In this document: piece by piece, positions 62,571 through 64,000 of the stretch | Layout: the number at the start of each line of letters is the position of its first letter | Position numbering within the stretch: the stretch's first letter is position 1 | NCBI RefSeq assembly: GCF_000235405.2 | Contig: NC_017095.1 | Span: 372,001 to 436,000, forward strand | Direction of reading: 5' to 3' | From: Fervidobacterium pennivorans DSM 9078 | Lineage (GTDB): Bacteria > Thermotogota > Thermotogae > Thermotogales > Fervidobacteriaceae | Length of the DNA: 64,000 nucleotides | The notes under the pieces: model-generated | Told to the model about the DNA's origin: nothing | The model's input: the letters and a program-made list of their open reading frames with translations, nothing else | Databases searched by the model: none | Position numbers and translations under genes: made by a program

Positions 62571-64000
62571 TTATATTTTTATGTCTTTGAAATTATCTTG
62601 TATCATGTTTAAAAGATTGATGGTCTGTTTCACATTTGCAAAGACATTGTTTATTTCATCTAGGAACCGCTGAATCGATGCACTGATTTCTTCGGCAGTA
62701 GCTGAACTTTCTTCCGAAATAGCAAGTAGATTTTGGATACTTGTTGTTATGCTTTCGAGTTTCTCAGTTTCTGAGTTTAGAGTTGATACCAAAGAATTGA
62801 GTTGTTGCGTAATTTGTGAGATGATGTTACTGGACTCCTTGCTTTCAGTAGCACTTTGGGCAAGTATTTGCGATTGTGCTTTCAATTCTTCGTATCCTTT
62901 GATTATACTCTGACTGAGTCTATCAATTCCATTGGAAACCGAGGACAAAAATTGAGAGATTTTCACAGCGGAAGCTTTACTTTCCTCAGCAAGTTTCCTT
63001 ATTTCGTCTGCGACTACAGCAAAGCCTCTTCCTGCTTCTCCACTTCTTGCTGCTTCTATCGCGGCGTTCAGAGCTAGTAAGTTTGTCTGTTCGGCGATAC
63101 TCATAACAGTGCTTGCGATTTCCATAATTGCGCTTGCTTGATTTCTTAGTTGCTCGCTTTCACTTGCTATAGTTTCAAAATCACTGCTCATAGTCTTCAT
63201 ACCATTTGCTGAGTGTTCTACACTCTTTGCAGCGTTAATTATTTTCTCAACAGCTAAGTTTAAATCGTGAATAATTTGATTTTGCTCGTTTATCGTTCGT
63301 GTAATTGTATCAACGTTTGACGCCACGGTTTCCGAAATTCTTTCAGCATCGTTACTAATTTGAACGGCAGTATCAGCAACTTGTTTTGATAGTTCCTTCA
63401 TGGTATCGATTTGTTCAAGTACCGTTTCCGAAGATTCTAAGGTTTTCTTGGAGAAGTTCATAAGTTCTTCTGTGTCTCCCTGGATGCCTACTAAGAATTC
63501 TCTAAGCTCATTGATGGCCTCTGAATTAATTTTAGAGACTTCTTCGAAGTTTCTTTCACCTTTTATTTGTACCAGAGTATTAAAATCTTTTTGTTTGTAA
63601 ACTTTGCTAATCTCTTTTAGTCCATCAAGACCTTTTCTGAAATCTTTCAATCCAAACATAACGCCAATGAGTGCAAGTATCGAAGTTAAAGTTGCTCCAA
63701 TAAGTGGTCCGAAGAATTTGGTCAAAAGGAAAGTGGCGACGAATGTAAATACAGGGAATATTATTGTATAGGTTGTAATGAAGTCTTTTAAAGTCCACAA
63801 ACTCAAAGCTCGGTAGCTTTTCAAGCTTATAGTCTTACCGTACGGTTTCGTTGAGCGGACCTTTACTTCGACGAAGCTTCCCGAAGATGAAGAACCCTGG
63901 TCAAGTATTTCTATTTCAATCGGGTCATTGAAAAACTCAGATGCACCTTTGAGCAGTCCCAAAAAGTAATATCTGAAATCTCTGTGGGATTGATATCTAA
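62571..64000 (-). CDS. H-NOX-linked methyl-accepting chemotaxis protein (5' end outside window)
   Basis: The frame is open to the window edge, so the TTG at 63962 is not the start. The first visible codons read [37 protein letters not shown] (63981-63995) fits the YxSxR haem-propionate motif of H-NOX domains, and the following segment matches the end of the H-NOX fold in the Thermoanaerobacter Tar4H receptor. Then come two hydrophobic segments ([21 protein letters not shown] and [19 protein letters not shown]), a linker, and a chemoreceptor signalling domain with the conserved tip ([41 protein letters not shown]). The receptor probably senses NO or O2 inside the cell and signals to CheA. The haem-ligand histidine lies outside the window. 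Confidence 0.85.

Follow-up and report, generated by a model that had tools for sequence, protein, structure and literature searches.

A putative O2-type H-NOX chemoreceptor in Fervidobacterium pennivorans and its Thermotogota relatives

Fusions of an H-NOX domain to a chemoreceptor (MCP) have already been published from strict anaerobes, and such a fusion is the setting of the O2-binding H-NOX group (PMC12329717, PMC8738867). Three residues, Trp9, Asn74 and Tyr140, are conserved in the H-NOX proteins of anaerobes, whereas the H-NOX domains of facultative organisms and of vertebrate guanylate cyclases do not have them (PMC1435932). Tyr140 stabilises the oxy complex; sensing of O2 in vivo is unproven even for the protein of T. 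tengcongensis (Caldanaerobacter) (PMC9814294). Here we describe a receptor from Fervidobacterium pennivorans that, judging by its residues, is an O2-type member of this kind in another phylum. The open literature yielded no description of an H-NOX receptor in Thermotogota among the matches listed, some of which were represented by title and abstract.

Gene, domains and neighbours

The window, by which we mean the whole stretch of 64,000 nucleotides that was analysed, spans bases 372001-436000 of the single-contig genome of F. pennivorans DSM 9078 (2,166,381 bases). The receptor frame has its stop end at 62571, and its other end is open at the window edge, where the initial annotation had seen it run off. 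The full genome completes it to a protein of 604 amino acids, with a start codon 385 bases past the edge (full gene C1:434571-436385; locus L002:8571-10385, minus strand). The protein begins at an ATG (MKSFVMNIW..., MKSFVMNIWINTWKK) just downstream of a purine-rich AAGGAGG. All features are collected in Table 1.

Table 1. Position of the receptor gene, its domains and the upstream gene (window positions unless a locus is named)
Feature	Position	Strand	Details
H-NOX chemoreceptor gene, part in the window	62571..63998	-	Residues 130-604 and stop
H-NOX chemoreceptor gene, part outside the window	up to window position 64385	-	Residues 1-129
H-NOX domain, C-terminal part	63843..63998	-	Residues 130-181; YQSHR (131-135) and Tyr140
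Two transmembrane segments, hairpin	63639..63782	-	About residues 202-249; Kyte-Doolittle hydropathy
MCP signalling domain, conserved hairpin tip	62727..63188	-	Pfam MCPsignal, residues 400-553
Membrane diguanylate cyclase (GGDEF) gene	L002:10469-12043; window position 64469 onward (outside window)	-	83 bp upstream of receptor

The Pfam family HNOB (PF07700) matches residues 2-159 with an E-value of 3.3e-41 and 141.3 bits, against a curated cut-off of 25.5, and covers positions 1-162 of the 163 in the profile. A search of the PDB with the receptor found only T. tengcongensis-type H-NOX entries as solved relatives of this domain. Its best alignment, to 1U4H (T. tengcongensis H-NOX), is gapless over residues 1-181 (5e-36), so the two proteins share one residue numbering, and the likeness to Thermoanaerobacter Tar4H that had been proposed from the end of the domain extends to all of it. 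A chance resemblance to H-NOX is excluded, and the sequence alone makes the fold certain. The YxSxR haem-propionate motif is present as YQSHR, as had been proposed, and the newly covered upstream sequence has both H-NOX similarity and the haem-binding histidine on which the initial annotation had staked its reading: the proximal His102 lies 29 residues before Tyr131, where a distance of about 30 had been predicted.

Hydropathy places two hydrophobic segments at residues ~202-221 and 224-249, in agreement with the two membrane segments read from the window. Because hardly any periplasmic loop lies between them, the H-NOX domain and the signalling domain are both predicted to be cytoplasmic. The chemoreceptor signalling domain was likewise recovered as proposed (MCPsignal, E 1.4e-31) and carries the canonical hairpin tip; Pfam reported no HAMP domain in the receptor. 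The nearest PDB match of this half is 2ch7 (E 5e-22), a chemoreceptor signalling domain from Thermotoga maritima. The H-NOX domain is thus joined through membrane segments to an MCP output within one protein, the arrangement of O2-type H-NOX-MCP receptors.

The downstream neighbours are ordinary: a gene that reads as ribosomal protein L31-like and an S1-domain gene. The diguanylate cyclase gene upstream has an intact GGDEF motif, and such a gene adjoins the receptor at several loci of the same family (L002, L013, L020, L026/L058, L030 and L032), while none was found next to the receptor at L012, L016 and L018. As the adjacency holds in only some of the same-family relatives, we rejected the cyclase as a conserved H-NOX partner.

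Haem pocket, ligand and conservation

Besides the residues expected to hold the haem (His102, Tyr131, Ser133 and Arg135), the receptor has Trp9, Asn74, Phe78, Pro115 and Tyr140, all numbered as in the T. tengcongensis H-NOX; position 5 is Val, against Ile5 there. The distal O2-type triad of Trp9, Asn74 and Tyr140 is therefore complete, and a pocket of this kind predicts that the receptor binds O2 and is not selective for NO. In selective NO sensors the distal Tyr is missing, and the operon supplies a partner, a kinase or cyclic-di-GMP enzyme; here Tyr140 is in place and the protein carries its own MCP output, despite the GGDEF gene nearby.

To see how widely these features are kept, one can look across the phylum. 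HNOB matches occur in 46 of 103 Thermotogota genomes, representing 18 of 38 genera, and nearly all of the frames are about 600 residues long. The triad is kept in 47 of 48 aligned sequences, a set that takes in the F. pennivorans receptor and L058. An alignment of the 44 full-length receptors has 21 invariant columns within the first 182 positions. These invariant columns include 9 of 11 named pocket positions (hypergeometric p ~3e-8, only indicative because the sequences share ancestry and the list of positions is that of the T. tengcongensis protein). The haem pocket is under strong constraint. A tree of the H-NOX domain, with the T. tengcongensis domain as its sole outgroup, clusters mostly by GTDB family; a few rows are misplaced (L042, L044), and the two genomes of family f3 cluster with f2. 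One genome (G046) encodes two H-NOX chemoreceptors (L048 and L006), of which one sits on a long branch and has an extra residue near Tyr140.

The single exception to the triad (L014:1462-1983, genome G004) is a stand-alone H-NOX-like protein of 173 amino acids with Leu9 and Phe140 and no MCP. It is strongly diverged; it may be an H-NOX of the NO type within a Thermotogota bin, or may come from a foreign contig.

A rival possibility is that the physiological ligand is NO and that the cells are steered by it. NO also binds to H-NOX proteins that have the O2 triad (PMC9814294), and in facultative anaerobes H-NOX proteins serve as NO sensors (PMC8738867). However, all MCP-fused copies keep the distal network of Trp9, Asn74 and Tyr140, the distal Tyr is missing from selective NO sensors (PMC12329717), and the sole divergent Thermotogota homologue, with Leu9 and Phe140, is the one without an MCP fusion. 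We therefore consider an NO receptor unlikely. The initial annotation had proposed aerotaxis or NO taxis; because the triad is complete, the O2 half of this proposal is the better supported and the NO half less so. Its reading of the gene as an H-NOX chemoreceptor was largely right.

The receptor co-occurs with CheA, which is encoded in 45 of the 46 receptor-carrying genomes, the exception being a genome that is 60% complete. Conversely, 23 of 24 genomes without CheA also have no receptor (Fisher p 3e-6, uncorrected for kinship), which indicates that the receptor goes with chemotaxis and is lost when chemotaxis is lost. The same pattern weighs heavily against a relic or non-functional receptor of a non-motile lineage. 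Such a relic could be suspected from the absence of haem synthesis (below) and of reported motility in fervidobacteria, but the frame is intact in 44 full-length genes, and the pocket and hairpin tip are invariant; we regard it as hardly credible. The F. pennivorans genome itself has both a CheA gene and a flagellin gene.

We consider it likely that the protein is a chemoreceptor anchored in the membrane by its transmembrane hairpin, with the N-terminal H-NOX domain and the MCP domain both in the cytoplasm, and that it carries a scavenged, O2-binding haem. In this receptor, ferrous haem would be held via His102 and the Tyr, Ser and Arg at 131, 133 and 135. The haem would take up O2, held by the hydrogen-bond network of Trp9, Asn74 and Tyr140. 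The altered haem and domain shape would act through the transmembrane hairpin on the signalling tip and change CheA activity. The most likely outcome would be that a strict anaerobe is steered away from O2.

Haem supply

The conserved pocket is set against a missing pathway. Profile searches found no ferrochelatase in any of the 103 Thermotogota genomes, and the same search matches 8 of 14 control genomes. HemB and HemC were each found in the same 4 of 103 genomes. The receptor occurs in three of the four (G078-G080), and all four are without ferrochelatase. The profiles detected neither HemB nor HemC in 43 of the 46 receptor carriers, including F. pennivorans, and to our knowledge every known route to haem goes through these two enzymes. 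As far as the profiles see, these 43 carriers thus have no known route by which to synthesise haem de novo. Matches to the UroD family in other genomes were not accepted as haem synthesis, because this family includes methyltransferases. The unusual point is therefore that the haem pocket is invariant while the haem pathway is absent.

In the F. pennivorans genome, profile searches found no HemB, HemC, UroD or ferrochelatase, so a holo receptor is not assured. With no known route to haem of its own, F. pennivorans probably scavenges the haem of the receptor from outside, for instance from lysed cells or organic matter. The haem chaperone HemW is encoded (214.3 bits against a curated cut-off of 205.4) and would perhaps help in delivery. 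We identified no dedicated haem importer in this genome; its sole FecCD permease above cut-off lies behind a cobalamin riboswitch and is thus probably a corrinoid importer. A related F. pennivorans strain requires yeast extract (PMC9861569). Yeast extract supplies many factors, which may include haem, so this requirement is only compatible with haem from outside.

Elsewhere in the phylum, four genomes of genus g20 in family f8 (G008-G011) encode cytochrome bd subunit I without ferrochelatase, HemB or HemC. A cytochrome bd without haem genes is a hint, and a second sign, of outside haem in members of Thermotogota.

The missing pathway could also mean that the receptor senses the supply of haem, or of another scavenged cofactor, rather than a gas, being apo by default and signalling when haem is available. 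The 43 of 46 carriers without HemB and HemC, and the lack of ferrochelatase in all of them, would suit such a sensor. An O2-stabilising triad would be superfluous in a pure haem sensor, yet the triad is invariant, and we judge this explanation very improbable.

For the O2 receptor that we prefer, we tentatively suggest a broader possibility: a branch of Thermotogota may keep an intact haem-based O2 chemoreceptor without making any tetrapyrrole. The receptor would then work only with outside haem, O2 and the supply of haem would together govern taxis, and Thermotogota would have an uncharacterised route of haem import that feeds a sensor and not respiration. The contrast between the invariant pocket and the missing pathway raises a testable question, namely whether these bacteria import haem, by which route, and whether they use it mainly for oxygen sensing.

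Comparison with known H-NOX proteins

The output half of the receptor resembles the 2ch7 chemoreceptor, and the likeness is limited to this cytoplasmic signalling part; no H-NOX match was found in the T. maritima control genome. The H-NOX proteins of Vibrio and Shewanella (facultative anaerobes) and soluble guanylate cyclase beta1 share with the receptor the HNOB family, the proximal His and YxSxR. They differ in lacking the distal Tyr and excluding O2, and the kinases or cyclic-di-GMP enzymes on which they act are separate proteins (PMC12329717, PMC8738867).

The closest counterpart is the T. tengcongensis receptor (Tar4H/1U4H), for which our comparison covers the H-NOX domain. Over residues 1-181, His102, Pro115, Tyr131/Ser133/Arg135, Trp9, Asn74 and Tyr140 have identical numbering, and both proteins belong to strictly anaerobic thermophiles and have an MCP fused to the domain. 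The two differ in phylum (Bacillota there, Thermotogota here), in Ile5, which is replaced by Val, and in overall sequence, with 18 of 54 residues identical in the ungapped stretch 128-181. The receptors described here carry the O2 type of H-NOX chemoreceptor widely into the Thermotogota and offer several thermophile orthologues for structural work.
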